DNA of 34,408 nt, from the NCBI GenBank assembly GCA_020720045.1, contig DYPH01000061.1, positions 1 to 34,408 of the forward strand. Reading direction: 5' to 3'. Both the position numbers and the translations under genes were made by a program. How positions within the stretch are numbered: the stretch's first letter is position 1; the number at the start of each line of letters is the position of its first letter. Below are positions 15,731 to 33,962 of this stretch, in pieces. The notes under the pieces were generated by a model. It saw nothing but the letters and a program-made list of their open reading frames with translations. It was not told the origin of the DNA and did no database searches. The DNA comes from Sorangium cellulosum (GTDB taxonomy: Bacteria > Myxococcota_A > Polyangia > Polyangiales > Polyangiaceae).

Positions 15731-18514
15731 TCATTTCGGCGCGGCGGCGTCTTTCGCGAACGCGCTAGCGAGCGGCCCGGCGAGGCGCAGGCGGAACGTT
15801 TCGCAGCGGACGTCTTGCTCAAGCGTCTCCTCAAGGTTGCGCTTTGCGCCGATAACCCCCTGAAGATTCTTGGTAAAGAAGGCTTCTGCTTCGACGCGCT
15901 CCTTCGCGTCGCAGATCCCCGTCGCGGCGAGCGTGAGACGGGAAGCCTGCGTCCCCGGAAGCTTCTTCCGTACGAGCGGCCAGTTCCCATAAATCCATGC
16001 ACGCGCAACTGCACGGGTGGCGCGACGCCCAAACGCGGGGCGAAGGATGTAGGTTACATCTTGCAGGCGAACGGCGTCGGAGAACGCCCACGCAAGGCTT
16101 TTTCCAAGGAGCTTCGGGTCATCGAAGGAGCCGAGGGCGCGCAACAGCGTCGTGCGGAGGACGGCGTCGGTCGCCTTCTCGGCCTGGCCACGAAGCGCGT
16201 CCCACCGCCGCTCATCGCCGCCAAAGGCGGAAATTTCGAGGGCCGCTTGGAGGGTGTCTGGCGCGAATGGCGTCGTCGGGTTCGCGAGCCAAGCATCGGC
16301 AATTCTACCGGCTTCTGCGCGAATTTCCGCGTCGCGTGCGGTATCTGCGAGGAAGAGGGCAAGCGCTCGGCGCACGAGGACGGCGTTGTCTGTGTCGTTT
16401 GGCTGAGTGACAAACCCGAGTTTGGCAAATGCCGGCCGAAGACGCCGCGTTGCATCCTTTGCAAGATGCACGCGATCGGCATCGGGCAGCACGTCGTCCG
16501 CTTGGCGGAGCACGGCGAGGAGCTCGTCCATGTCATGACGAGCCGGCGATTTTTCAGGTGCCGTCCCCGCCAGCGCGGCCCGCTCAGCGACGCCACGAAT
16601 GAGCGCCACAAACGGTGCGGCGAGCGCGGCGCTTTCGGCTGGCGACGCACCCGAGGATCGCCGAAGCGAAGCCCAGGAGTTCGCAAGCAAATCGGCCGGA
16701 ACCGCCGCCGGGTCCTTGAGGGCGACGAGGGGGTCGAAGGGCTTTTTTCCCGTCATTTCCCAACGAAAGTAGCCGCGGCCGCCGTGCCGGTAGGGCGGGG
16801 CTCCGCCGCTCCCGTCGCAGGGATCGCTGCTAGAAGCCATCACGCAACGGCCCCCGGCGCCGTCACAGACGGGAACGAGCCATCCTGTTGCATTTGCCTG
16901 CAACTTTTCGTTCACCACCGACCATGCGGTGACGGATAGCGTTGCTTGTTTCTCGCATCGGGAACCGGAAGGCCCGGCGTCGGAATATCGTACGAGCGGA
17001 ATGCCGGGCGCATCGAGGTACGGCGCTGCGACCGCTGCGACCGGCTTCTTCGAGACTTCGGCGAGCGCGCCAAACAGGTCGGCGGCGGTGGCGTTCCCGA
17101 ATGCGTGTAGTTTTACGTGTTTGCGGAGGCCATCCCGGAGCACATCGGGGCCGAGCCAGCCGCCAAGAAGGGCGATGACGCTTGCGCCCTTGTCGTAGGT
17201 CAAGGGGTCGAAGGCCTCCTGGGCTTCGGCAACCGTGCGGACCGGCTGACGGACGGCGCGCGCCGACGCAAGGACGTCGAGATCCATCGCGCGCTGGGCA
17301 TCGAGGAGGCGCTCTTCGCGCACTCCGCCGGCAGGGTCGATGCGATCCAGGACTTCCCCCTCCAGAAAGCTCGCGAAGCCTTCATTCAGCCAAAGGTCGT
17401 CCCACCAAGCCATTGTCACAAGGTCGCCAAACCATTGGTGACCGAGTTCGTGGGCGACAACGGCTTCCATCGAACGAACTTGGCGTCGCGGAGACCGCTC
17501 CCGATCGACAAGGAGCAGTTCTTCGCGAAACGTCACAAGACCCGGATTTTCCATCGCACCCGCCGCAAAATCGGGGACGGCAACGAGATCGAGCTTCTCA
17601 AAGGGATAGGGGTAATCAAAGTAATTACCGAGCGCATCGAGAGACTTCTTCGCAGCGACTTGAGCCGCTTTTCCAAACTGGGCTTTCCCGAGCGGTGCGA
17701 TCACGCGAACGGGCACTGGGCTAGGATTCGCGTCTTCGAGGACGGAGAACCTGCCGGCGGCGAGGGCAACCAGGTAGCTCGGAATAGGCTTTGTATCCTT
17801 GAATACAAACCGTTCAAACCCACCGTCCGCAGGTTCTCGACGGAGAAGTGGAGCATTTGAAAAGGCTTGCTGCCCCTTCGGAACGTCAATGGAGATGCGG
17901 AACGGGACTTTGAAACCCGGTTCATCAAAACACGGAAACGCCCGTCGCGCGTCCATCGGTTCAAACTGGCTGTAGACGGCGCCATCGGCGACGTAAAAGC
18001 CATCAAGATCATCCGAATAGGTCGAATGCCAACGAAGTTCGAGGCTCCCCTTCCCCGCCGGAAGTTGGATGCCAGGCGGCGCCGCGAGGACCAGCTCTTC
18101 CCCGCGCGCGGTCGTCGCCAGCGGAAAAGAGGTGCCGTTGAACGTGACGACGGCGCGGTCGATGACCACGTCGCGGGCGTGCATCACGAGGGCGCCCTGC
18201 GGCGCCGCCAGCGTGACCGCTATCGTTTCCGCGCCGGAAAATTCCTTGCTCGCGGGGTCGAGCCGGAAACGAAGGTCGTAGGAAGTCGGCACCGCCGTAG
18301 GCGGGAGCCGACCATCGGCCCGCGGGGCAGGAGGAAGATTCGGGGGCGCAGTTGCGCTCGCAACAGTTTGTACTTCCGTAGGTTTTTTGGGGGCCGGTGC
18401 GGCCGGCGCACACCCCAGCGGACCTACGGCGAGCACGGAGGCGGCTGCCCACGCGGTAGCGTCGACGAAATGGGTCACCGCGCGCGAGCCTGGGGGCGAA
18501 AGACGCAATCGCAT
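15731..18514 (-). CDS. M1-family zinc aminopeptidase, probable lipoprotein
   Basis: This is a 927-residue gluzincin of the M1 (aminopeptidase N/ERAP) family, which removes N-terminal residues from peptides. The exopeptidase motif GAMEN (319-323) and zinc site HELGH-x18-E (His355, Glu356, His359, Glu378 in NEGF) are intact. A beta-rich N-terminal domain precedes the catalytic domain, and an ERAP1-like helical C-terminal domain occupies about 650-927. ATG 18514 gives a signal-like stretch ending in VGPLGC (Cys35), so the enzyme is probably a periplasmic or membrane-anchored lipoprotein, unlike cytoplasmic PepN. The frame is open further upstream, but that part looks like random GC-rich coding. 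It is divergent from the M16 peptidase pair across 155 bases, suggesting joint roles in peptide turnover. Confidence 0.92.
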   Translation of the reverse strand: MRLRLSPPGSRAVTHFVDATAWAAASVLAVGPLGCAPAAPAPKKPTEVQTVASATAPPNLPPAPRADGRLPPTAVPTSYDLRFRLDPASKEFSGAETIAVTLAAPQGALVMHARDVVIDRAVVTFNGTSFPLATTARGEELVLAAPPGIQLPAGKGSLELRWHSTYSDDLDGFYVADGAVYSQFEPMDARRAFPCFDEPGFKVPFRISIDVPKGQQAFSNAPLLRREPADGGFERFVFKDTKPIPSYLVALAAGRFSVLEDANPSPVPVRVIAPLGKAQFGKAAQVAAKKSLDALGNYFDYPYPFEKLDLVAVPDFAAGAMENPGLVTFREELLLVDRERSPRRQVRSMEAVVAHELGHQWFGDLVTMAWWDDLWLNEGFASFLEGEVLDRIDPAGGVREERLLDAQRAMDLDVLASARAVRQPVRTVAEAQEAFDPLTYDKGASVIALLGGWLGPDVLRDGLRKHVKLHAFGNATAADLFGALAEVSKKPVAAVAAPYLDAPGIPLVRYSDAGPSGSRCEKQATLSVTAWSVVNEKLQANATGWLVPVCDGAGGRCVMASSSDPCDGSGGAPPYRHGGRGYFRWEMTGKKPFDPLVALKDPAAVPADLLANSWASLRRSSGASPAESAALAAPFVALIRGVAERAALAGTAPEKSPARHDMDELLAVLRQADDVLPDADRVHLAKDATRRLRPAFAKLGFVTQPNDTDNAVLVRRALALFLADTARDAEIRAEAGRIADAWLANPTTPFAPDTLQAALEISAFGGDERRWDALRGQAEKATDAVLRTTLLRALGSFDDPKLLGKSLAWAFSDAVRLQDVTYILRPAFGRRATRAVARAWIYGNWPLVRKKLPGTQASRLTLAATGICDAKERVEAEAFFTKNLQGVIGAKRNLEETLEQDVRCETFRLRLAGPLASAFAKDAAAPK

Positions 18515-18669
18515 GGACGGCGAGGAACGACCCGACCGGCGGCGAAAAGTCAATCGGAAACCGGTTTTGTCGGGCGTCGCACGTCGGCCGCCTCCGCCCG
18601 CCGAAACGACGGATCGGAGGACGCGTTCGATGGCAAGACCGGCGGGAATGCGGGTACCTTCCGCCGCCG
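18515..18669. promoter_or_regulatory. Divergent promoter region between M1 and M16 peptidase genes
   Basis: These 155 bases must hold the start signals for both directions. They include a 10-bp palindrome AAACCGGTTT (18558-18567). I cannot assign convincing -35/-10 hexamers, so only the location is supported. Confidence 0.35.
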
Positions 18670-20115
18670 ATGCAACGAAACTTCTCCGGCTTCTCGAGGC
18701 GACTTCCTCCGCTTGCGCTGCTCCCGCTCGCACTTTTTCTCGGTGCGGGCAAGCCGGCGACCCCGACTGCGGCTCCGATTGCGGCTCCGACGGTCGTGTC
18801 GAACGCGAGCGGACTCCTTCCGAAGGTCACGCGAAAGACCCTCGCGAATGGCCTTGAGGTTCTCGTGGAGGAGGACCACCGGATCCCGATCGTGGCCGTA
18901 AACCTTTATTATCACGTTGGTTCTAAGGACGAGGCAAAGGACAAGAACGGGTTTGCTCACCTCTTCGAACACGTAATGTTTCAAGGCTCGAAACACGTTC
19001 CCGAAGACACGTTTTTCGCGACCCTGGAGAAGGCCGGCGCCACCGGCATCAACGGCACAACCAACGATGACCGCACGAACTATTTCGAGACGGTCCCCGC
19101 GAATCGACTCGCGCTTGCGCTCTGGCTGGAGAGCGACCGCATGGCGTTTCTGCTGGATCATGCCGGTGCGGAGACGTTCGCGTCCCAACGGGACGTCGTG
19201 AAGAACGAGCGCCGGCAAAACTACGAAGCGGCCCCGTATGGGCGGGTCGCCGAGTTTGCACGGGCGGCGCTCTGGCCGGAATCCCACCCCTACCACCGGC
19301 TCACGATCGGCACCCCGGAGGACCTCGACCGCGCCTCCATCGCCGACGTGCAAGGCTTTTTTCGCACCTGGTATGTGCCCAATAATGCTTCCATTTCTAT
19401 CGTTGGTGACACGACACCCGCGGAAGCATTTGCGCTCGTCGAAAAGTACTTCGGCCCGATTCCGAGCGGTAAGCTCCCGACGCGCGCCGCCCCTCCCCTG
19501 CCGGTTGCGGGTCGAAGCCGCCAACTGACCATCGAAGCCGATGTGACGTCGGCTCGCGTGCAGTTTGCATGGGTTTCGCCGGCGATGTTCGCCCCCGGCG
19601 ACGCGGAACTCGACCTCGCCGCCTCCGTTCTTGCCGCCGGAGCCTCAACACGCCTCGAAAAGGCGCTCGTCTACGACCAGAAGCTCGCGAACAGCGTGTC
19701 GGTGCACCAGGCGTCGCGCCAATACGGCTCCGACTTCTGGATTTCTGTCGACCTGCGGAAGCCGGATGCGCTCCCCGCGGTGACCGCCGCCGTCACTGCT
19801 GCCATCGACGAACTCGCCAGTCACGGCCCGTCCGCCGACGAGCTTGCGCGCGCAAAGACGCGCTACCGCACCATGTACCTCGCGAGCCTGGAACAGGCCT
19901 CCGCGCGGGCCAATCAACGAAACATGTACCTTCAATTCCTGGGTGATCCCGACGCCTTCGAGAAGGACCTCGCCCGTTACGAACAGGCAACCGTAGACGG
20001 CGTTAAGGATGCAGTAGCCACATGGCTCCCAAAGAAAGGGCGACTGGTCGTAAGCGTTGTTCCGACCACGGGTGCCGGGATCGCGGGCAAGCTTGTGAAG
20101 GCGGAGGACCTGTGA
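18670..20115 (+). CDS. M16-family zinc metallopeptidase (catalytic subunit), exported
   Basis: This is a 481-residue pitrilysin/processing-peptidase-like protein. The N-terminal hydrophobic stretch (12-27) is a signal peptide or anchor. The inverted zinc motif HLFEH (His97, Glu100, His101) is present, with the third ligand Glu180 in VVKNERRQNYE at the usual distance. Other M16 marks are GFAHLFEHVMFQGS, GINGTTNDDRTNYFETVP and the SHPYHRLTIG segment. Bacterial M16B/C enzymes of this size act as heterodimers with a zinc-free partner, and that partner is encoded directly downstream with a GTGA overlap. It probably degrades peptides in the periplasm. An Ala-Pro repeat near 31-41 comes from a 12-base duplication in the DNA. 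Confidence 0.92.
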   Translation: MQRNFSGFSRRLPPLALLPLALFLGAGKPATPTAAPIAAPTVVSNASGLLPKVTRKTLANGLEVLVEEDHRIPIVAVNLYYHVGSKDEAKDKNGFAHLFEHVMFQGSKHVPEDTFFATLEKAGATGINGTTNDDRTNYFETVPANRLALALWLESDRMAFLLDHAGAETFASQRDVVKNERRQNYEAAPYGRVAEFARAALWPESHPYHRLTIGTPEDLDRASIADVQGFFRTWYVPNNASISIVGDTTPAEAFALVEKYFGPIPSGKLPTRAAPPLPVAGRSRQLTIEADVTSARVQFAWVSPAMFAPGDAELDLAASVLAAGASTRLEKALVYDQKLANSVSVHQASRQYGSDFWISVDLRKPDALPAVTAAVTAAIDELASHGPSADELARAKTRYRTMYLASLEQASARANQRNMYLQFLGDPDAFEKDLARYEQATVDGVKDAVATWLPKKGRLVVSVVPTTGAGIAGKLVKAEDL

Positions 20116-21641
20116 AATACCGTTTTCTTTCGGCAACCTGCTTCGTAGCGCTCGCTGCTTGCAACCATGAAGCGCCGCCCGTACACGTGCCGCCGCCGAC
20201 GGCGGTCCCTTCCGTCGCGAAAGTCCCGGAGGCGATCGCGACGACGATGGATGCCCCCTTTCGCGCGAAGGCCCCAGAGGCCGGTCCCGAACCGACTTTT
20301 GCCCCACCGACCGTCGTCGAAGCCCATTTGAAAAATGGGCTCCCCGTCTACCTAATTTCGCGGCCGGGACTACCACTCGTGAGCCTTCAGCTCGTCGCAC
20401 GAGGCGGAGCGGCGCTCCCTGGACTCTCGCCAGGGATCGCGACGTTCGCGACGGGTCTCCTGTCGGAGGGGACAAAAAAACGCAGCGCAGCGGAGCTTGC
20501 AGATTACACTGATTCGCGCGGGCTGTCTTTTTACGCGACGGCCGACTTTGACGCGGCGTCCATCGGCGTCAAGGGCACCTCCGACACGCTCCCCGAAGCG
20601 GTCGGTCTTCTTGCCGAATTGGCGCTTGAGCCCGGCTTCCGCAAGGAGGACGTCGAACGCGAACGGGCACGCCGCGTTCACGCGCTCGACGTAGAGACGA
20701 CGCGGCTGAACACGATGGGGAACGCGCCGCTCGCGAACGCCCTCTTTGGCGCCAGCCACCCGTACGGAGTTCCGCTCATCGGCACCAAGACGGCTGCCGC
20801 CGCCTGGAAGACCGAAGAGGTCGCCAAGGCACACAGCACGCTGTTTGCGCCGGGCCGCTCCGCGCTTTTTATTGCAGGAAATTTCGACACCTCCGTACTA
20901 CTCCCCCTCCTTGAAAAGGCTTTCGCACGCTACGCGCCTCCGGGCAAGAAAGTGCAGACTGCACCGGCTATTCCCGCGAGCAGCGGGACAGCTCCGCGCC
21001 TCGTGTTCATCGACAAACCGGGTGCCCCACAAGCGCAGCTCGCGGTGGCCAAGCGAGGTACGCGTTTCCTCGACGCCGACTACTTCGCGCTCGCCGTCGG
21101 AAATGAGCTCTTTGGCGGGGCATTCTCGAGCCGCATCAACCTCAATCTTCGGGAAAAGAATGCGTTCACTTACGGGGCGCGCTCGTCGGTCGGTTTCCGC
21201 CACGGCGATGGCCCTTTTGTGATCAGCACCGGCGTCTTCGTCGACAAGACGGCGCCGGCGATTCGTGAGATTTTTCAAGAACTTCAGCGACTCTCCGACC
21301 AGCCTCCGAACGAGGAAGAGCTCGCCCTCGCGAAGGGGCACCTGCGCCTCACGTTGCCCGCGCGCTTCGAGACGAACGACCAAGTTGCGAGCAGTTTTGC
21401 GCAGCTGTTCATTCAAGAGTTCCCGCTCACGTTCTACGCGACGCGAAACGCAAAGATCGACGCCGTCACCCCTGCAGCAATCCAAGCGGCAGCGAAGAAA
21501 CTTCTCGATCCGAAGCTATTCACGGTCGTGATTGTCGGCGATGGCACGAAGATCCTTCCAACACTGCCATCGTTGAACCTCGGTGCGCCCCTCGTCGTCG
21601 ACGGAACCGGAGCGCCGGTCGCCGCCGCGAGCACCAAGTAA
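20112..21641 (+). CDS. M16-family inactive (non-zinc) partner subunit, lipoprotein
   Basis: This is a 509-residue M16-like protein from GTG 20112, overlapping the previous stop. The signal peptide ends in lipobox LAAC (Cys17). Its fold is that of M16 peptidases, seen in SLQLVARGG, KEDVERERAR, SHPYGVPLIGT, and the second-domain marks GGAFSSRINLNLREKNAFTYGARS and FVDKTAPAIREIF. Where the active subunit has HLFEH it reads GIATFATGLLSEGT, with neither the His pair nor the Glu, so it cannot bind catalytic zinc. Such zinc-free M16 subunits pair with an active one, and their Arg/Tyr residues in the second half contribute to substrate binding; RE-NAFTYG here fits. It is therefore the obligate partner of the preceding gene product, anchored by its lipid. 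Confidence 0.9.
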   Translation: MKYRFLSATCFVALAACNHEAPPVHVPPPTAVPSVAKVPEAIATTMDAPFRAKAPEAGPEPTFAPPTVVEAHLKNGLPVYLISRPGLPLVSLQLVARGGAALPGLSPGIATFATGLLSEGTKKRSAAELADYTDSRGLSFYATADFDAASIGVKGTSDTLPEAVGLLAELALEPGFRKEDVERERARRVHALDVETTRLNTMGNAPLANALFGASHPYGVPLIGTKTAAAAWKTEEVAKAHSTLFAPGRSALFIAGNFDTSVLLPLLEKAFARYAPPGKKVQTAPAIPASSGTAPRLVFIDKPGAPQAQLAVAKRGTRFLDADYFALAVGNELFGGAFSSRINLNLREKNAFTYGARSSVGFRHGDGPFVISTGVFVDKTAPAIREIFQELQRLSDQPPNEEELALAKGHLRLTLPARFETNDQVASSFAQLFIQEFPLTFYATRNAKIDAVTPAAIQAAAKKLLDPKLFTVVIVGDGTKILPTLPSLNLGAPLVVDGTGAPVAAASTK

Positions 21642-21696
21642 CCGTCGACGCCCCTTCCCTCCCCGCGCCGCGGCGGGGTACGACAGAGCACCGCCT

Positions 21697-22869
21697 ATGC
21701 AGGTCCAAAACTATCCGCTCCACGCACGCCTTCAGCAGATGGCGAAGGTCCTCGAAGCCCGATTTTTGGGAAAAGACGAGGTAATTCGCCTTCTTCTGGT
21801 GGCAACTGTCGCCGGTGAGCACGCCGTCCTCATCGGACCGCCGGGCACCGCGAAGAGCGCGCTCATCCGGTATTTCGCGCGCCTTCTGAATGCGAATTAC
21901 TTCGAATACCTCCTAACGCGCTTTACGGAGCCGAACGAAATCTTCGGCCCGGTCGACATCGCTGCTTTCCGCGAAGGTCGCTACGTCCGTCGGACCGAGG
22001 GGATGCTCCCTTCTTCGGAAATCGTTTTTCTCGACGAGGTATTCAAAAGCAATTCAGCGATCCTCAACTCGTTGCTCACGCTTTTGAATGAGCGGAAGTA
22101 CTCGAGCGGTGGCGTCTCTCTTAAGTGCCCACTTCTCTCCTGCTTTGGCGCAAGCAACGAAGTCCCCGGCGACGAAAATCTCACGGCCATTTTTGACCGT
22201 TTCCTGCTCCGAATCCGTTCCGACAATCTGGACGCCTACCACTTCCAGGACCTCCTCCAGCGGGGCATCGAGAACGAAATTCAAGGGCTCGCGGAAGCAC
22301 CGATTCAGCCCCTCGCAACCGCGCGGGAACTCGCGGAGTTGCACCGTAGTTTCGGACAACGGATGCAGTTTCCGGACGAGTTTCTCTCCGCCTACAAGGG
22401 GCTCGTTTTCCAAATTCGCGCCGAGGGCGTCAGCCTTAGCGATCGTCGCGTCGTCAAGATCCTGAAACTCTTTGCGGCAAGTGCCTGGCTCGACGGTCGG
22501 AGCACCCCCGATGCGAGCGACTTCTTTGTTCTGAAACACATTTGGAACAATGAAGATCAGGCGGCGATTCTCGAGGCGCTCGTCACGCCGGTGCTCGAAG
22601 CGCACTACCGCGACAATCCGCGTGCGCGGCGTGTGGGGGCGGCCGGTGTTGGCATCGAAGCAATGGCCGCCGAGATCGATCGCGTACGCCAGGTGCTTAC
22701 CGGCGGCGCGGGCCTCTCCGACGTCCAACTGTTTAGTCAATTGAAGACGCTCGGAGAAATCAAGGCTGCGCTCGTAGGATCGGCCGACCCGCGGGGGCCC
22801 GAACTCATTCAGCGCGTCGATCAACTCCTCGATGCGGCGTTCCGTAGCGGCCGTTTTGCCCAACTGTGA
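21697..22869 (+). CDS. MoxR/RavA-type AAA+ ATPase
   Basis: This is a 390-residue cytoplasmic AAA+ ATPase of the MoxR class, a chaperone-like family that remodels or activates target proteins. Walker A is GPPGTAKS (47-54), Walker B IVFLDEVF (109-116), sensor 1 GASNEVP (Asn154) and the arginine finger FDRFLLR (Arg168). A helical lid domain runs to about 320, with a coiled C-terminal tail. The early FTEPNEIFGPVD motif is typical of the RavA/MoxR branch. MoxR genes normally sit beside a von Willebrand factor A protein such as ViaA. None is present here; instead the stop overlaps tsaB. ATG 21697 is preferred over an upstream start at 21583 that would lie inside the M16 gene. Confidence 0.9.
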   Translation: MQVQNYPLHARLQQMAKVLEARFLGKDEVIRLLLVATVAGEHAVLIGPPGTAKSALIRYFARLLNANYFEYLLTRFTEPNEIFGPVDIAAFREGRYVRRTEGMLPSSEIVFLDEVFKSNSAILNSLLTLLNERKYSSGGVSLKCPLLSCFGASNEVPGDENLTAIFDRFLLRIRSDNLDAYHFQDLLQRGIENEIQGLAEAPIQPLATARELAELHRSFGQRMQFPDEFLSAYKGLVFQIRAEGVSLSDRRVVKILKLFAASAWLDGRSTPDASDFFVLKHIWNNEDQAAILEALVTPVLEAHYRDNPRARRVGAAGVGIEAMAAEIDRVRQVLTGGAGLSDVQLFSQLKTLGEIKAALVGSADPRGPELIQRVDQLLDAAFRSGRFAQL

Positions 22870-25379: not shown

Positions 25380-27749
25380 GTGAACGCTCCGAAAACCACC
25401 GAGACGCTTCCGCTCCTTCCGCTCCGAAATAGCTGCCTTTTCCCGGCAAGCGTCACTCCGGTGAACGTCGGGAGGCCGCGCAGTGTGCGCCTTGTCGAGG
25501 AACTCGTCGCTGACGAGCGTCCCCACATTGCAGTGATTACACAGAAAAATCCCGAGCAGGATGAGCCGGGAATCGGTGATCTCCACTCAATCGGCACCAT
25601 CGCACGCGTCGTGAAGGTCATTCGGATGAGCGCAACGAGCTACTCGTTGGTGCTCCACGGAGTCGCCCGTATTCGCCTCGTAACGGGCTTCGAGCGCGAG
25701 GGGAGAAACGGCGGGCGTGGCTATCTCGCCGGGGAATTCGAGCGTCTCACGGAAAATCTCGAACGCGACGGCCTCCTCGACGAACGGGCGAACGCTTTGC
25801 GCGCGCTCGTGAAGGAACTCCTTGAGCAACTCCCGACGCTGCCGAAAGAAACGGCGCAAGTTCCAGAAAATGTGCGGGATCCTGGAAGTCTAGCCGATTT
25901 GATCGCGTCGAACTTTCCGACCGAGATCCTCCCGGTCGCCGAAAAGCAGGCGATCCTCGAAAGCCTCGACCCGAGAGCTCGCATTGAAGCGATCATCGCC
26001 GTTGCAACGAAGCAGCTGGACATGCAGCGCGTGCGCCGGGAAGTATCCACGATGGTGGCCGCGGAGGGGAAAAACCAGCGAGAGCTCGTTCTTCGCCAGC
26101 AAATGCGAACGATTCGCGAGGAACTTGGCGAGAGCGGCGAAGACGACGAAGTCGAGCTCTTGCGCGAGCGCATTCACCTCGCTGGGCTGCCGGAAGACGC
26201 CTTGAAGATTGCGAAGAAGCAGCTTGGCCGCATGGCCGGCATGTCGTCGCAATCGGCGGAGTACAACGTGACGCGCAGCTACGTCGAATGGCTCGCCGAC
26301 CTCCCCTGGACGAAGACGACCCCCGATACCCTCGACGTGGAAAAGTGTCGCCGCTTCCTTGAGGAAGATCACTTCGGACTGGAAAAGGTCAAACGCAGAA
26401 TCCTCGAATACGTCGCCGTCCGGAAGCTCCGCGGCGACAAGAAGGGGCCGATTCTCTGCTTCGCCGGCCCCCCCGGCGTCGGCAAGACTTCCCTCGGACG
26501 GTCCATTGCACGAGCCATGGGTCGGCGCTACCACCGGATTTCTCTTGGCGGCGTCCGCGACGAAGCCGAAATCCGCGGTCACCGGCGCACGTACGTTGGC
26601 GCGCTTCCCGGTCGGATTATTCAGGCGATGAAGAAGGTCGGGACGAAGAATCCGGTCATCGTCCTCGATGAAATCGACAAGATGGGGGCCGACAACCACG
26701 GCGACCCGGCTGCCGCGCTCCTCGAGGTTCTCGATCCCGCGCAGAACGACACGTTCTCGGACCACTACATCGACACGCCGTTCGATCTCTCCCAGGTCGT
26801 TTTTCTGGCGACGGCAAACAGTCTCGAGACGATCGCGGGCCCGTTGCTTGATCGTCTTGAGATCATCGAAGTGCCGGGCTACACGCGACGCGACAAACGC
26901 AATATCGTTCGTGAGTTCCTCGCCCCGAAACAAATTTCGAGCCATGGCCTTACGCCGGACAATCTCGAGTTCGCCGAGAGCGGCATCGAGGTACTCGTCG
27001 ATAGTTACACCCGTGAAGCCGGCGTCCGAACCCTAGAGCGCGAGGTCGGAAGCGTTTGTCGCCATGTGGCGATGAAGCACGCGAGCGGCGATTTGACGAA
27101 GGTTATCGCGGATCGAGAGGCAGTCATCGAAATGCTCGGGCCGCCGAAATACCACGCCGACCTCGCCGAACGCTCGTCGGCGGCGGGCGTTGTTACCGGG
27201 CTCGCGTGGACCCCCGGTGGTGGAGATATCCTATTTATCGAAGCCAGCAAGATGCCCGGCAAGGGCCTCGTGCGGGTAACTGGAAACTTGAAAAACGTGA
27301 TGCAAGAGTCGGCGGCGGCGGCCGTCAGCTTTGTCCGGAGCCACGCCGAAGAACTCGGACTGAAACCCGAAGAAATGCAGAAGCTCGATCTGCATCTTCA
27401 CGTCCCCAAGGGGGGGACGCCGAAGGACGGCCCGTCGGCAGGCGTCACGATGTTTACTGCGCTCTCTTCGCTCTTGCTCGATGCAAAAGTGAAGAAGAAC
27501 GTGGCCATGACGGGGGAGATCACACTCCGTGGCGCGGTTCTTCCGGTCGGCGGAATCAAGGAGAAGCTCCTTGCGGCGCACCGGGCGGGCATCACCGAGG
27601 TCCTTCTTCCAAAACGGAACGAGCGCGATCTCGAAGACGTTCCTGCCGATGTCCGCAGCAATTTGACGATTCACCTCGTGTCGCGGGTCGAAGAGATTCT
27701 CCCTCTGGTCCTCGAACCGCCGACGGAGCCTGCGCCGGTTGAGCTCTGA
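25380..27749 (+). CDS. lon: ATP-dependent Lon protease
   Basis: This is a 789-residue Lon, the cytoplasmic hexameric protease that degrades misfolded and regulatory proteins. The N-terminal substrate-binding domain starts with LPLLPLRNSCLFP (about 10-220). The AAA+ module follows, with Walker A GPPGVGKT (363-370) and Walker B VIVLDEIDK (426-434). The C-terminal protease domain carries the Ser686 (KDGPSAG)/Lys729 (GGIKEKL) dyad. Length and motifs match LonA. It starts at GTG 25380 without an obvious Shine-Dalgarno sequence. A GC hairpin lies upstream, and I found no clear heat-shock promoter. The next gene, a membrane metallopeptidase-like protein, begins within a few bases of the lon stop, so the two are co-transcribed. 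Confidence 0.97.
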   Translation: MNAPKTTETLPLLPLRNSCLFPASVTPVNVGRPRSVRLVEELVADERPHIAVITQKNPEQDEPGIGDLHSIGTIARVVKVIRMSATSYSLVLHGVARIRLVTGFEREGRNGGRGYLAGEFERLTENLERDGLLDERANALRALVKELLEQLPTLPKETAQVPENVRDPGSLADLIASNFPTEILPVAEKQAILESLDPRARIEAIIAVATKQLDMQRVRREVSTMVAAEGKNQRELVLRQQMRTIREELGESGEDDEVELLRERIHLAGLPEDALKIAKKQLGRMAGMSSQSAEYNVTRSYVEWLADLPWTKTTPDTLDVEKCRRFLEEDHFGLEKVKRRILEYVAVRKLRGDKKGPILCFAGPPGVGKTSLGRSIARAMGRRYHRISLGGVRDEAEIRGHRRTYVGALPGRIIQAMKKVGTKNPVIVLDEIDKMGADNHGDPAAALLEVLDPAQNDTFSDHYIDTPFDLSQVVFLATANSLETIAGPLLDRLEIIEVPGYTRRDKRNIVREFLAPKQISSHGLTPDNLEFAESGIEVLVDSYTREAGVRTLEREVGSVCRHVAMKHASGDLTKVIADREAVIEMLGPPKYHADLAERSSAAGVVTGLAWTPGGGDILFIEASKMPGKGLVRVTGNLKNVMQESAAAAVSFVRSHAEELGLKPEEMQKLDLHLHVPKGGTPKDGPSAGVTMFTALSSLLLDAKVKKNVAMTGEITLRGAVLPVGGIKEKLLAAHRAGITEVLLPKRNERDLEDVPADVRSNLTIHLVSRVEEILPLVLEPPTEPAPVEL

Positions 27750-27753
27750 GCGT

Positions 27754-30030
27754 GTGAGCGCTGGAAAATCACGGCGTTTCGGAACAGGGCCGGTCGTCGT
27801 CGCCGCCATCGCGACGGCAACCGGCTTTCTTCCGCTGTTTGGGGCCCCCGGTTACGAGCAGGCGCTCCTGGCGGGCCTGTGGGTACCGGGCTTCGCCGCC
27901 GTTGCCCTTGCCCGGCAGCGCGTTCCGTGGAGCCTCCAGCGCTTCGGCGACGCCCTCGCGCGCGGCGTCGCGTATGCGCTCGCCCCGCTCTTTGCCGCCT
28001 ACGTCCACGTGCTGCGTGGCGAAGGTTGCGGGCCCCTCGAAGGAACCGTGTATTATGCATGGACAGACGGCTTCGGAATCGTACTCGGGGCGCTTTGGGG
28101 CGCGCTCGTTGGTGCGCGCGCATCACGAAAACAATCATCTTTACAGGCCACTACGCTCGTTGCGATCGCTGGTCCGCTGACGACGGCGCTTCTCTCCCTC
28201 GGGCGCTTCTTCACTTCCCCCATGATCTTCGCCTTCGACCCATTCGTCGGCTTTTTCAGCGGGACGCTCTATGACACCGTCGTCGATCCCGGCATTGCAC
28301 TTTACACCTATCGTCTCGGTTCCGTTTTGACGGTTGCCGCGGTCGGCTCCGGCACACTCCGCCGGCACTCACGCGGAAGCGCTCGATATTTTTGGACTTT
28401 TGGCGCCCTTTTGGCCGCGTGCGCGTCGGCCTTCGTCACCGCGAATGGCCCTCGGTTTGGCCATTGGCACACGAAGGCGAGCATCGAAGCGGCCCTCGGG
28501 GATTCCATCGACGGTCGGCGATGCCGCGTCGTCTATCCGTCGGGCACGCCACGCGCCGATGCCGAACTCCTTCTCGCCGACTGCGAAGCCGAACTCGAAT
28601 CGGCGGAGTCGTGGCTCGAATTGCCGCACGATTCAAAGAGGTTAACGGCATTTTTCTTCCGAGACGCCGCCCAGAAGCGTGCGCTCATGGGGGCCGAACA
28701 CACCTACGTTGCGAAACCGTGGCGCGATGAAGTTTACTTGCAACTTGCAAGCTTCCCTCACCCGGTCCTTGGCCATGAAATCGCACACGTTGTTGCCGGT
28801 CGTGCGGCACGCGGCCCGTTCCGTATCGCTGGAGCAGTCGGCGGCCTGTGGCCGAATCCAGGGCTCATCGAAGGCGTTGCAAGCGCCGTCTCCCCAGACG
28901 ACGACGAGCTCACCGATCCCCAATGGGCACGGGCTCTTCTCGAAGAGAACCGCCTGCCGCCGATCGGAGAGATCCTTTCTTTTCGTTTCTTTTCAGCGAG
29001 TTCCGCGAAGAGCTACACAGTCGCGGGAGCGTTCGTCACGTGGGTCAAGAGTCGCTTCGGCGCGAAAACGGTGACGGCCTGGTACGGCGGAACGGAACTC
29101 CCAAGGTTGACAGGCCTGGATTGGGGAGCGCTTGACACTGCGTTTCGCGCGTGGGTCCAGGATCAACCGTTTCCGCCGGCGGCACGAAGCTATGCTCGCG
29201 GAAAATTTGAACGTCCCGGTCTCTTCGGGCGGAGGTGCCCGCACGCCGTTGACACGCTCCGCGGCGAGGGGGACCGACTCCGCGGCGCCGGGGACGGGAA
29301 AGGTGCAATCTGCAAATATGATGCGGCGCTTGCGCTGGACGGCAACGACTGGAACACGAGGCTTGCGCGCGCAGCGACCGTGGCCGAGGGCTACCGCGGA
29401 CCATCCGCGCCAGCGCCACTTGCCCCGTTGGAAGCGCTTCTGAGCGCCGAAACGCCCGCCCCCATCCGCGACCGGGCCGAGGACGCGCTGGCGGAAGCGT
29501 CTTGGTTCGCGGGCGACCTTCCGAGCGCAGCGGCGCACTGGAACGCGCTCGCTGCGCGCACACTCGACGAAGACGCCGGTCGAAACTTTGAGGTGAAGGC
29601 ACTGGCGTCGTCAGGCTTTTCCGAGCCGCAGGAGAGATCACTCGCGCCTGCGATCGGTGCGTTGATTCTGGGCGACGAGCGCCACCGGGGGCCAAACGCA
29701 CTGTTGGCTGGCGTACGCCTCGGGGCGCTTACGGGCCCAGCAGAGCCACTTGCGCACTACCTGCTTGGAAAAAACCTCATGAATCAGAAGGACTGGCGCG
29801 CGGCGGAGCGTGAGCTTTTTCACCCCTCCACCGGTCCTGGAACGCTGGCGACCCCGCGCCTTGGCCGCGAGATGCTTCGCCAGCGGGCGATCGTTTCTTG
29901 CATCCTGCACACACAGGATCGGCTTGAGGAGACCCGACGCTACGTGCTCGCCGCAGACTCGCCGTTTGGCGGCTCGTCCGGGGGGAGGCGCGAATCCCTC
30001 TTGCGCTTCATCGCGCGGTGCGCCCCGTAA
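27754..30030 (+). CDS. Membrane protein with gluzincin-like HExxH domain and repeat-rich C-terminus
   Basis: This is a 758-residue protein I cannot name. Residues 10-230 hold about seven hydrophobic segments. A soluble domain follows (about 255-480) with GHEIAHVVAG (His341, Glu342, His345) and GLIEGVAS with Glu373, i.e. HExxH-x27-E. It then has YTVAGAFVTWVKSRFG-x-YGG, which matches Peptidase_MA-like gluzincins. Residues about 500-758 are helical repeats rich in Ala/Leu (DAALALDGNDWNTRLARAATVAEGY, AEDALAEASWFAGDLPSAAAHW), resembling TPR units. The likely picture is a membrane-anchored zinc peptidase with a protein-binding tail on the periplasmic side. The GTG at 27754 lies four bases after the lon stop; TTG 27739, overlapping lon, is an alternative start. 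Co-transcription with lon suggests a role in protein quality control, by inference. Confidence 0.75.
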   Translation: MSAGKSRRFGTGPVVVAAIATATGFLPLFGAPGYEQALLAGLWVPGFAAVALARQRVPWSLQRFGDALARGVAYALAPLFAAYVHVLRGEGCGPLEGTVYYAWTDGFGIVLGALWGALVGARASRKQSSLQATTLVAIAGPLTTALLSLGRFFTSPMIFAFDPFVGFFSGTLYDTVVDPGIALYTYRLGSVLTVAAVGSGTLRRHSRGSARYFWTFGALLAACASAFVTANGPRFGHWHTKASIEAALGDSIDGRRCRVVYPSGTPRADAELLLADCEAELESAESWLELPHDSKRLTAFFFRDAAQKRALMGAEHTYVAKPWRDEVYLQLASFPHPVLGHEIAHVVAGRAARGPFRIAGAVGGLWPNPGLIEGVASAVSPDDDELTDPQWARALLEENRLPPIGEILSFRFFSASSAKSYTVAGAFVTWVKSRFGAKTVTAWYGGTELPRLTGLDWGALDTAFRAWVQDQPFPPAARSYARGKFERPGLFGRRCPHAVDTLRGEGDRLRGAGDGKGAICKYDAALALDGNDWNTRLARAATVAEGYRGPSAPAPLAPLEALLSAETPAPIRDRAEDALAEASWFAGDLPSAAAHWNALAARTLDEDAGRNFEVKALASSGFSEPQERSLAPAIGALILGDERHRGPNALLAGVRLGALTGPAEPLAHYLLGKNLMNQKDWRAAERELFHPSTGPGTLATPRLGREMLRQRAIVSCILHTQDRLEETRRYVLAADSPFGGSSGGRRESLLRFIARCAP

Positions 30031-30131
30031 AGAAGGGAAAGGTGCACTTACGCCAGGAACATCGGAGCACCATTGTGAGTCGTGTCGGAGCGAGGACACT
30101 CGCTACGACCCCCCTCTTGAAAGGATCGATC

Positions 30132-30497
30132 ATGAAGCGAATTCTCTCCGCCGTTGTCGCCGTCGTCGCCCTCTCTTTCGCCGCTGTCGCCTCCGCAGAC
30201 CCGGCCCATGAGGGTGCAAAGGGTCACAAGGAACACGGGAAAGCGTTTCCGATGAAAGCCGAAACGTTCCAAGCGCGAGAAGCCGCCCACGAAGCAAAGT
30301 GGAAGGGGCGCTTCGAGACGAAGATTCAGAAGCTGCCTGCCGACAAGGCGAAGATCGTTCGCGAACGTATGCAAGTTCGACTTGAAAAGGTTCACGCGAA
30401 GGTGGCTGAAGTTACGAAGGACGGGACCGTTACGAAGGAGGAGGCCGCCGAGGTTCGCAAGGCATCACATGGTGGAAAGCATAACAAAAAGCGCTAA
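30132..30497 (+). CDS. Small basic His/Lys-rich exported protein
   Basis: This is a 121-residue protein with a clear signal peptide (1-22, cleavage after ASA) and the best ribosome site in the area (GAAAGGA seven bases before the ATG). The mature 99 residues are almost all charged and helical, with many Lys, Glu and His (HEGAKGHKEHGK at the N-terminus, HGGKHNKKR at the C-terminus) and no Cys. A KDGTVTKEEAAEV stretch (about 95-107) resembles one EF-hand loop but lacks a full calcium set. Size, charge and helicity recall Spy/CpxP-like periplasmic chaperones, but I see none of their LTxxQ motifs, so this is only a guess. Metal binding through His is another possibility. It is followed by a strong terminator. 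Confidence 0.8.
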   Translation: MKRILSAVVAVVALSFAAVASADPAHEGAKGHKEHGKAFPMKAETFQAREAAHEAKWKGRFETKIQKLPADKAKIVRERMQVRLEKVHAKVAEVTKDGTVTKEEAAEVRKASHGGKHNKKR

Positions 30498-31800: not shown

Positions 31801-33447
31801 CTAACTCGCCCGAGTTCCTTGCGCCAACAAGGCTCGGAGCGCTTCTTCGGTGACGCCCAGGCGCTCAGCGGTTCGGTGGGCGAGCGACGTCTCGGCGACC
31901 CCGTCCAGGAACGCGTAAGTGGGCCGCTCCGCCGCATCGAGCTCGACGCGGAGAAAGAGGAGTGCCGGATGGGCAGCCGTCCCCGCCGCCGCCTCTTCCG
32001 CGAGCCGTTTTGCGAAGGCCAAGAAGTGGGTGGTCACAAAAGTCTCGGGTCGAAACTCCCCAAGCAGCTTCACGACAAGGCGGAAAATCGACTCCCCTTC
32101 CTCGGGGTTCGTTCCTGAACAGAGCTCGTCGAGCACGACGAGCGGCCGACGCTCCTTTCGTGCGTCTCTAGCCTCGCCCAGTGCCTCGAAGAGCTTACGA
32201 ATTCGGAGCAACTCGGTGCCCAACCGCCCTTCGCGCTGGTCGGGATCGGCGTGGTCGATCAACGACACGAAGAGGCCCGCAGCACGAGGGAGCTGAGCAC
32301 GCGTCGCCGGAACAAAGAAGCCCCCCTCCGCGAGGAGCTGCGTCAACGCAACCGCCTGCAAGAGCCTTGTTTTTCCGCCAGAATTCGGGCCAGTGACCAC
32401 GACGAGCGCCCCTTCCGTGCCGAGAACGAGGTCACAAGGAGTGGGCTTGCGCCCCTGGGGGCCATCCAGCAAGAGCGGATTAAAGAGCGCCTCGATCTCT
32501 CGTGGCCCGCCATCGGTCAACGTCGGCAAGGACGTTGCAAGGCCGGCTTTGGCCGCACGGTCGCGAAACGCAAGCGCTCCGAGGATCACTTCGAGGTCCC
32601 CTACGAACGGAAACAGCGGTGGTAAGGCGTCGGCAACGCCCTCGAATACCGTATCCATCAAGTGGGCAAAAAGTTCGTGTTCGCCGAATTTACGCCCGCG
32701 TAGGAATAGAGAGGTCTGTTCGATCCACTTTCCAAGCTGGGACCGATCAAAGGGATTTTCCGCATCGATCTTTTCGTGCAAGATCTTGAAGTCGCGAATT
32801 TTTCCCTCGAACCCGATCCGCAAGCGCACGTCAATTTCCGCTACGTTCGACTCATAGGCGAGAAGAGAGACTAGGCGCTGAAACCCCTCACTGTTCGAGA
32901 GATTTCGAGACCAATCGCCAATGCACGAAACGCCGCTTGAGGCATCCACTTGAACGCCCACTTGTACCAAATTCCGCAGCGAAGTAAGGACATTGAGCCG
33001 ACGCTCAAAGGGATCGGTCTTGACGATGCCCGTCTTCGAGAGATTGGTGCGAAGGTCGAGCACCCCGAGGTAGAATTCTTCGACGCGGGCCCGGAGTTCC
33101 GCGTTTTCGGAAAGCTCGCGGAGGATCGCTTGGCGAAACGGGACGATGCGCTCGTCGCTCGGTGGAGCGGCGACAACCCGGTAGAGGTACGCAAACCGTG
33201 GTGTCACGCGGACGCCGGCAATCCGCGGCGAAAAGGCACGCTCAAGGAAGACGCTCAGAAAGAGATCTCGCTCGTAGTCTGCAGGACGCCACTCGGTCGG
33301 CGGCGCAAAGCGCTCATCGACAAGCACTTCGAAGGCTTCGCCGACGTCGCCAGTGGCGAACGCGAATACGAGCTGGTCCCGCAGGCGGCGCTCGTTCGGC
33401 TCCGAGGGGGTGGGCGTAAGTAGCGAAAGGGCAATCGGTGCTGGCAT
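31801..33447 (-). CDS. Short MutS-family ATPase (MutS-related, lacking mismatch-binding domain)
   Basis: This is a 548-residue protein whose C-terminal third is a MutS-type ABC ATPase: Walker A GPNSGGKT (353-360), signature/Walker B LVVLDELCSGTNPEEGES (436-453) and the switch His in VTTHF (474). Ahead of it lies a helical region (about 100-320) corresponding to the MutS core/clamp, and a unique N-terminus. It lacks the mismatch-recognition domain of MutS and the Smr nuclease domain of MutS2. At 548 residues it is far shorter than MutS (about 850) and belongs with the poorly studied MutS-related small branches. A role on branched DNA or RNA is possible but unproven. ATG 33447 follows an upstream exported-protein gene by 32 bases. 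The frame extends to 33579, but that would overlap the neighbour. Confidence 0.85.
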   Translation of the reverse strand: MPAPIALSLLTPTPSEPNERRLRDQLVFAFATGDVGEAFEVLVDERFAPPTEWRPADYERDLFLSVFLERAFSPRIAGVRVTPRFAYLYRVVAAPPSDERIVPFRQAILRELSENAELRARVEEFYLGVLDLRTNLSKTGIVKTDPFERRLNVLTSLRNLVQVGVQVDASSGVSCIGDWSRNLSNSEGFQRLVSLLAYESNVAEIDVRLRIGFEGKIRDFKILHEKIDAENPFDRSQLGKWIEQTSLFLRGRKFGEHELFAHLMDTVFEGVADALPPLFPFVGDLEVILGALAFRDRAAKAGLATSLPTLTDGGPREIEALFNPLLLDGPQGRKPTPCDLVLGTEGALVVVTGPNSGGKTRLLQAVALTQLLAEGGFFVPATRAQLPRAAGLFVSLIDHADPDQREGRLGTELLRIRKLFEALGEARDARKERRPLVVLDELCSGTNPEEGESIFRLVVKLLGEFRPETFVTTHFLAFAKRLAEEAAAGTAAHPALLFLRVELDAAERPTYAFLDGVAETSLAHRTAERLGVTEEALRALLAQGTRAS

Positions 33448-33479
33448 GGCGTTCCCGGCGCGCGCCGGCGACGTACCGG

Positions 33480-33962
33480 CTAGTCGATCTCGCCTTCGAC
33501 CGGGGAGGCTTCCTCTGGTTCCCCACGGCGCCAACAAACTGGTCCGGTAAAGCCGTGGTCGGTCGAAACGGTCCCGCAAAGCTCGTCAGGGCCCATCCGT
33601 CGAAGGGAATAGTCGATGAGATAGGGGTCTTCGCTGGTCGGATTGTTTACCTTATGGACGCGGAATTCCGCACCGGATAAATATCCGTCGTCGAAGACGT
33701 ACGTCTCGCGTGTGAGGCACTGAATGGCGACCCGCTCTCGGTCGACAGAACGCAATGTGTAGCGTTCGTTGTATCCGAGACCGTCCCAATGTTCTGTCCA
33801 GATCCCATCGAGATCGGTCACATTGGAGCCGCCGCGAGGCCCCGCGGCTATGGGGGGAGTCGCGACCGAGACAACGACGGCAGCCGCCGGCTGCATCGGG
33901 ACGGCCACCGGCGCACAGCTAAACGCGAAAATAACGGTATATGCGACGCGGAGCGGGGTCAT
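33480..33962 (-). CDS. Small exported, probably lipid-anchored, protein
   Basis: This is a 160-residue protein from ATG 33962. The N-terminal hydrophobic segment ends at AFSC (Cys16), an imperfect lipobox, followed by an Ala/Pro/Val-rich linker to about residue 45. The remaining domain starts DLDGIWTEHW and continues as alternating beta strands (NERYTLRSVD, RVAIQCLTRETYVF, AEFRVHKVN, YLIDYSLRRM), suggesting a small beta-barrel or lipocalin-like fold with Cys residues that could pair. No family is recognised. It sits between an outer-membrane barrel gene (20 bases upstream) and the MutS-like gene (32 bases downstream) on one strand, so the three probably form one transcript. A link of function among them is not evident. 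Confidence 0.7.
   Translation of the reverse strand: MTPLRVAYTVIFAFSCAPVAVPMQPAAAVVVSVATPPIAAGPRGGSNVTDLDGIWTEHWDGLGYNERYTLRSVDRERVAIQCLTRETYVFDDGYLSGAEFRVHKVNNPTSEDPYLIDYSLRRMGPDELCGTVSTDHGFTGPVCWRRGEPEEASPVEGEID

Follow-up and report, generated by a model that had tools for sequence, protein, structure and literature searches.

An unnamed family of membrane-anchored gluzincin-TPR proteins in Myxococcota, predicted to face the periplasm and linked to lon within one order

The window analysed here is a stretch of 34,408 nucleotides from Sorangium cellulosum (assembly GCA_020720045.1, contig DYPH01000061.1), in which the gene under study directly follows a full and true lon gene (Table 1). Its frame is open throughout from 27739 to 30030 on the forward strand and offers two candidate starts. 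TTG at 27739 would give a protein of 763 residues and overlap lon, while GTG at 27754 yields the 758-residue version used for residue numbering throughout; the latter lies 4 nt past the lon stop, in line with the original prediction of a start within four bases of it. Both genes are probably co-transcribed. A scan of region 27400-30300 for sigma-70-type promoters gave no match, and such a scan tells little in Myxococcota. Directly after the peptidase gene, positions 30132-30497 (+) encode a lysine-rich protein of 121 residues with a signal-like N-terminus and no family match. Elsewhere the window holds genes for an M1 aminopeptidase (15731-18733, -; PF01433, E 7e-68), which shares the window with two other peptidase genes, a bpMoxR-type AAA protein of the MoxR-vWA-beta-propeller ternary class (21583-22869, +; PF20030, E 2.6e-76) and a 592-residue protein with MutS domain V (31801-33579, -), whose nearest models, MutS2 and KamC, match far under their cut-offs.

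Table 1. Coordinates of the peptidase gene, its upstream neighbour and the features of the encoded protein within the window.
Feature	Position	Strand	Evidence
lon, upstream neighbour	25380..27749	+	TIGR00763, E 1.7e-264; 4-nt gap
Membrane gluzincin-TPR gene	27754..30030	+	Open frame; GTG start, 758 aa
Seven-helix membrane domain, residues 12-230, predicted N-in, C-out	27787..28443	+	AF2 pLDDT about 92; positive-inside charges in 71 homologues; ABC-2/type V permease-like fold, best match NosY
C92, proposed disulphide partner of C495 (29236-29238)	28027..28029	+	Both invariant, 71/71
Conserved, predicted periplasmic loop between helices 5 and 6, residues 156-176	28219..28281	+	Consensus PxVFAFDPFxGYFxGxLYD; G166, G170 and Y173 invariant; beta hairpin in model
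Gluzincin peptidase domain, residues 240-476	28471..29181	+	VIA-align Z 17.2 to M9, about 12 to M1; Peptidase_MA_2 98.8%
HEIAH motif with H341, E342 and H345 (residues 341-345)	28774..28788	+	Invariant, 71/71
E373, predicted third zinc ligand, x27 after HEIAH	28870..28872	+	Invariant, 71/71; aligns with EG of Peptidase_MA_2
Y421, candidate transition-state tyrosine	29014..29016	+	Invariant, 71/71; role inferred from spacing to Grimontia collagenase tyrosines (PMC9304777)
TPR solenoid, residues 495-756	29236..30021	+	Profile matches from profile position 500; TPR_19; paired helices in model

Layout, conservation, fold class, topology signals and gene neighbourhoods were computed. Based on an alignment of 71 full-length homologues, AlphaFold2 delivered a model with a pLDDT of 92.6 and a pTM of 0.93. 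In this model, the peptidase domain comes after seven helices (residues 12-23, 34-53, 61-90, 94-126, 130-154, 181-205 and 209-230). At the other end of the protein, the family profile matches many solved TPR proteins, and TPR_19 was found in 40 of 50 homologues. Although identity to the window protein drops to ~20% among the 71 homologues, 14 residues are unchanged in all of them: C92, G166, G170, Y173, R187, H341, E342, H345, E373, G374, A376, Y421, G425 and C495. The motif is not due to chance, given such invariance, which means constraint and says nothing on the identity of a substrate. The arrangement originally read from the sequence, with about seven N-terminal membrane segments, an HExxH-x27-E Peptidase_MA-like domain and a helical TPR-like C-terminus, was thus recovered, the second of these elements through the invariant HEIAH and E373 together with a gluzincin fold match. 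The same conservation and fold counter the possibility that homologues or model lack the zinc-site residues.

The peptidase domain has the fold of the gluzincin clan MA(E) along with the conserved HExxH...E. Its best match in the VIA-align comparison was the M9 collagenase of Vibrio harveyi (3.3 A over 227 residues), followed by M1 aminopeptidases. A comparison by hhalign with Peptidase_MA_2 proteins of the same genomes (probability 98.8%, E 7e-17, over about 175 columns) placed HExxH on HExxH and EG on EG. The window protein itself stayed below the Pfam gathering cut-off for Peptidase_MA_2 (PF13485), while 14 of 70 homologue peptidase domains matched this model at E up to 1, the best at 3.6e-6. 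Other sequence searches of this domain gave less: its profile found neither a gluzincin nor a collagenase among PDB sequences, and the best match there, citrate synthase at E 0.017, was rejected as chance. The M1 profile aligned solely over the 8-column HExxH core. No Pfam search of the homologues returned Peptidase_M9 (PF01752); a PF01752 search of 39 related genomes was likewise without match, yet is uninformative alone because its controls were silent too. M48 was absent from the homologues' Pfam matches, as was HPx4R from the invariant columns. Of the profiles that the original prediction had proposed, TPR and, by profile-profile comparison, Peptidase_MA_2 gave matches and M48 gave none. 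Judged by sequence, the domain is a divergent relative of Peptidase_MA_2. It shares with this clan MA(E) family the HExxH, the downstream E-G and a Y-x3-G pattern, but differs in its seven-helix anchor and in an HExxH-to-E spacing of 27 residues, against 15-17 in most cases. The M9 collagenases (Grimontia/Vibrio, clostridial ColG) are closest in structure and have H, H and E ligands with comparable spacing, namely His492, His496 and Glu520 in the Grimontia enzyme, with catalytic tyrosines further on, and His523/His527/Glu555 in a second set (PMC9304777). In contrast to them, the window protein is membrane-anchored, lacks the activator domain and has no sequence match to PDB collagenases. Zinc binding and catalysis are predicted for it.

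Two types of evidence point to the side of the membrane on which this domain lies. First, lysine and arginine alternate along the membrane domain: averaged per protein over the 71 homologues, the N-terminus carries 1.83 and loops 2-3, 4-5 and 6-7 carry 2.35, 3.31 and 2.31, while loops 1-2, 3-4 and 5-6 carry 0.11, 1.14 and 0.23. According to the positive-inside rule, the N-terminus would be inside and everything past helix 7 outside. Second, cysteines come in pairs. C92, located in a loop predicted to be periplasmic, never varies, and neither does C495. In counts that are inflated by related sequences, 51 homologues have both C257 and C277, 18 have neither and 2 are discordant, while for C716 and C756 these numbers are 36, 32 and 3. 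Without disulphides this pairing would be difficult to account for; they would join C92 to C495, C257 to C277 and C716 to C756. Since invariant or co-varying cysteine pairs are expected of disulphides in the periplasm, they too argue for a periplasmic peptidase side. Thus the peptidase domain and the TPRs are predicted to be periplasmic, across the membrane from Lon.

The protein belongs to a real gene family that spans much of the Myxococcota. The nearest-relatives search found a homologue in each of its 39 genomes, the window's own counted, and 114 of the 187 genomes sampled across the phylum carry one, normally as a single copy (~60% of the sampled Myxococcota), a count from which the weak matches to shorter proteins in three genomes of one family should stay out. 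The membrane-domain profile alone finds 109 of these 187. A scan of all species, which reaches just close relatives, returned myxobacterial loci only. With the window protein alone as query, Pfam, NCBIfam, PADLOC and PDB sequences yielded no informative match, and our literature search found no paper on the peptidase-TPR protein or its lon linkage. The family is undescribed and has no name in Pfam or NCBIfam; the view that no characterised protein has such a layout was borne out in the libraries searched.

Outside the window's order, the peptidase gene adjoins a gene for a small NTF2/SnoaL-like protein with a lipoprotein signal. Counted as matched genomic places from profile searches with both proteins, this adjacency was found in 29 genomes from 7 families, where the two genes either share a strand or converge. 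Across the 187 genomes, 105 have both genes, 7 the peptidase only, 1 the lipoprotein only and 74 neither, although this co-occurrence follows clades and may reflect few evolutionary events. As clades are not independent, a Fisher value would overstate the case. Within Polyangiales, the NTF2-like gene is located away from the peptidase gene, with a lipobox in most cases; in the window's own genome it lies at C182:36312-36770. Its neighbours in this order vary, among them response regulator-TPR, patatin and sigma-54 activator genes, and suggest no pathway. The lipoprotein family, seen at ten of the loci inspected, has a conserved IPNT-DVEDT...NR start and an SG(L/M/I) end and is apparently undescribed as well. 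A Bradymonadaceae-like neighbourhood with DUF192, HEAT repeats and a second peptidase-TPR gene was considered as general context and rejected, being local to that group. The second TPR protein of this neighbourhood (L082:9927-12788) has 953 residues and a Peptidase_MA_2 domain (E 1.6e-6).

Taken together, we give about even chances to the reading that the protein is an inner-membrane zinc endopeptidase which works in the periplasm on envelope substrates guided by its TPRs, similar to BepA, with the lipoprotein as partner or client. The seven helices would anchor the protein with its N-terminus inside, and the last of them would bring the gluzincin domain and the TPR solenoid to the periplasm. 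There, H341, H345 and E373 would bind zinc and E342 would activate water, while Y421 probably steadies the transition state. The cleft may be shaped or gated by the TPR solenoid together with the conserved loop of the membrane domain on the periplasmic side, both of which may also draw in envelope proteins in the fashion of BepA. E. coli BepA is a periplasmic M48 zinc peptidase followed by TPRs, which bind envelope clients and bring outer-membrane proteins to the protease (PMC7950410). Its M48 ligands (E201, H246 plug) and HPx4R are not the pattern of the window protein, however, and it lacks the seven-helix anchor. As neither BAM nor Lpt genes adjoin the peptidase gene at the tested loci, the likeness to BepA is one of layout and compartment only. 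The NTF2/SnoaL-like lipoprotein would be the likeliest partner or client, and a likelier partner than cytosolic Lon; this partnership, like the quality-control role, is what we infer from the data above.

One might also envision a specific processing or signalling protease that cuts a single envelope client, for example the NTF2-like lipoprotein, an anti-sigma factor or a secreted precursor, without clearing damaged proteins. A single copy per genome, the strong constraint on the cleft, the conserved partner-like lipoprotein and TPRs suited to specific recruitment would all fit such an enzyme. However, no regulator or precursor gene is conserved alongside the peptidase gene across lineages, and the lipoprotein neighbourhoods of Polyangiales are mixed, so that we consider this scenario doubtful.

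The linkage to lon, from which the original prediction had derived a membrane-side quality-control partner of Lon, is real in the window's order. In an even draw from the phylum, 28 of 31 genomes of this order have lon immediately followed by the gene, both on one strand; two more, in which the pair is split over contig ends, raise the count to 30 of 31, and a single genome is unlinked. Seven or eight further exceptions come from the nearest-relatives sample. The gap between both genes is usually under about 110 bp, and the linkage persisted within the order as protein identity fell to 30-45%; named records with it include Labilithrix, Polyangiaceae and Sandaracinaceae. Outside the order, lon was found at 0 of 28 fetched loci, 23 of which had more than 2 kb upstream. 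On the family tree, linked genes fall in a single clade, within which the linkage was lost about six times; this suggests that it has one origin and is of use without being indispensable. At one locus (L093), the gene that flanks lon elsewhere in the order still adjoins the peptidase gene, lon being gone between them. Lon itself is a cytosolic protease. Its persistence next to the peptidase gene in one order, with the same lon copy on the same strand and mostly at short distance despite divergence, could indicate that both act in one degradation pathway, with the peptidase for instance passing membrane proteins across the membrane for Lon to finish. Yet the catalytic side is predicted to be periplasmic and the linkage is confined to one order and was lost repeatedly there, with L093 as an example. 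A direct quality-control partnership with Lon is thus not supported, and a joint pathway appears improbable. The position after lon would rather reflect shared transcription than a shared complex.

The fold of the membrane domain is a lead of its own. Modelled alone, it reached a pLDDT of 91.8, and its ten best structural matches were all ABC-2/type V permease domains within a range of Z 8-11: NosY (Z 11.2, 3.6 A over 184 residues, a value that can be chance, as can any Z < 13 for helical bundles), ABCG1 (Z 9.8), ABCG16 (Z 9.5) and ABCG25 (Z 9.1). As modelled, it would share with these exporters the order and packing of six helices, while the additional helix, the fused peptidase, the missing linked ATPase and the absence of sequence-profile similarity set it apart. 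Foldseek returned nothing under E 0.3, a Pfam scan of 70 membrane domains of the homologues gave no recurring model, profile comparison with ABC2_membrane_2 reached 0.4%, and no linked ABC ATPase was present among the neighbours scanned. We therefore treat the membrane base, as modelled, as similar to ABC-2 permease domains in fold only. It is distinctly improbable that an exporter-type membrane domain lost its ATPase and was fused to a periplasmic zinc peptidase and TPRs, with the NTF2-like lipoprotein as a dedicated partner, binding envelope substrates or passing them to the protease. Very unlikely is a machine derived from an ABC-2 exporter, in which the permease-related domain still moves a substrate that the fused peptidase trims on exit: its matches are uniform and, as in those permeases, six helices bring the chain back inside, with the seventh added, but the Z scores below 13 and the Foldseek, profile and ATPase results speak against it.

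For the preferred reading of a periplasmic, TPR-guided zinc endopeptidase, there is now a defined compartment, a set of active-site residues, proposed disulphides and a candidate partner, each of which can be tested directly. Function should not be read from the lon linkage by itself. A single-copy protein that is found order-wide and in ~60% of the sampled Myxococcota, whose active site is invariant and which still lacks a name, probably plays an important part in the envelope physiology of these bacteria.
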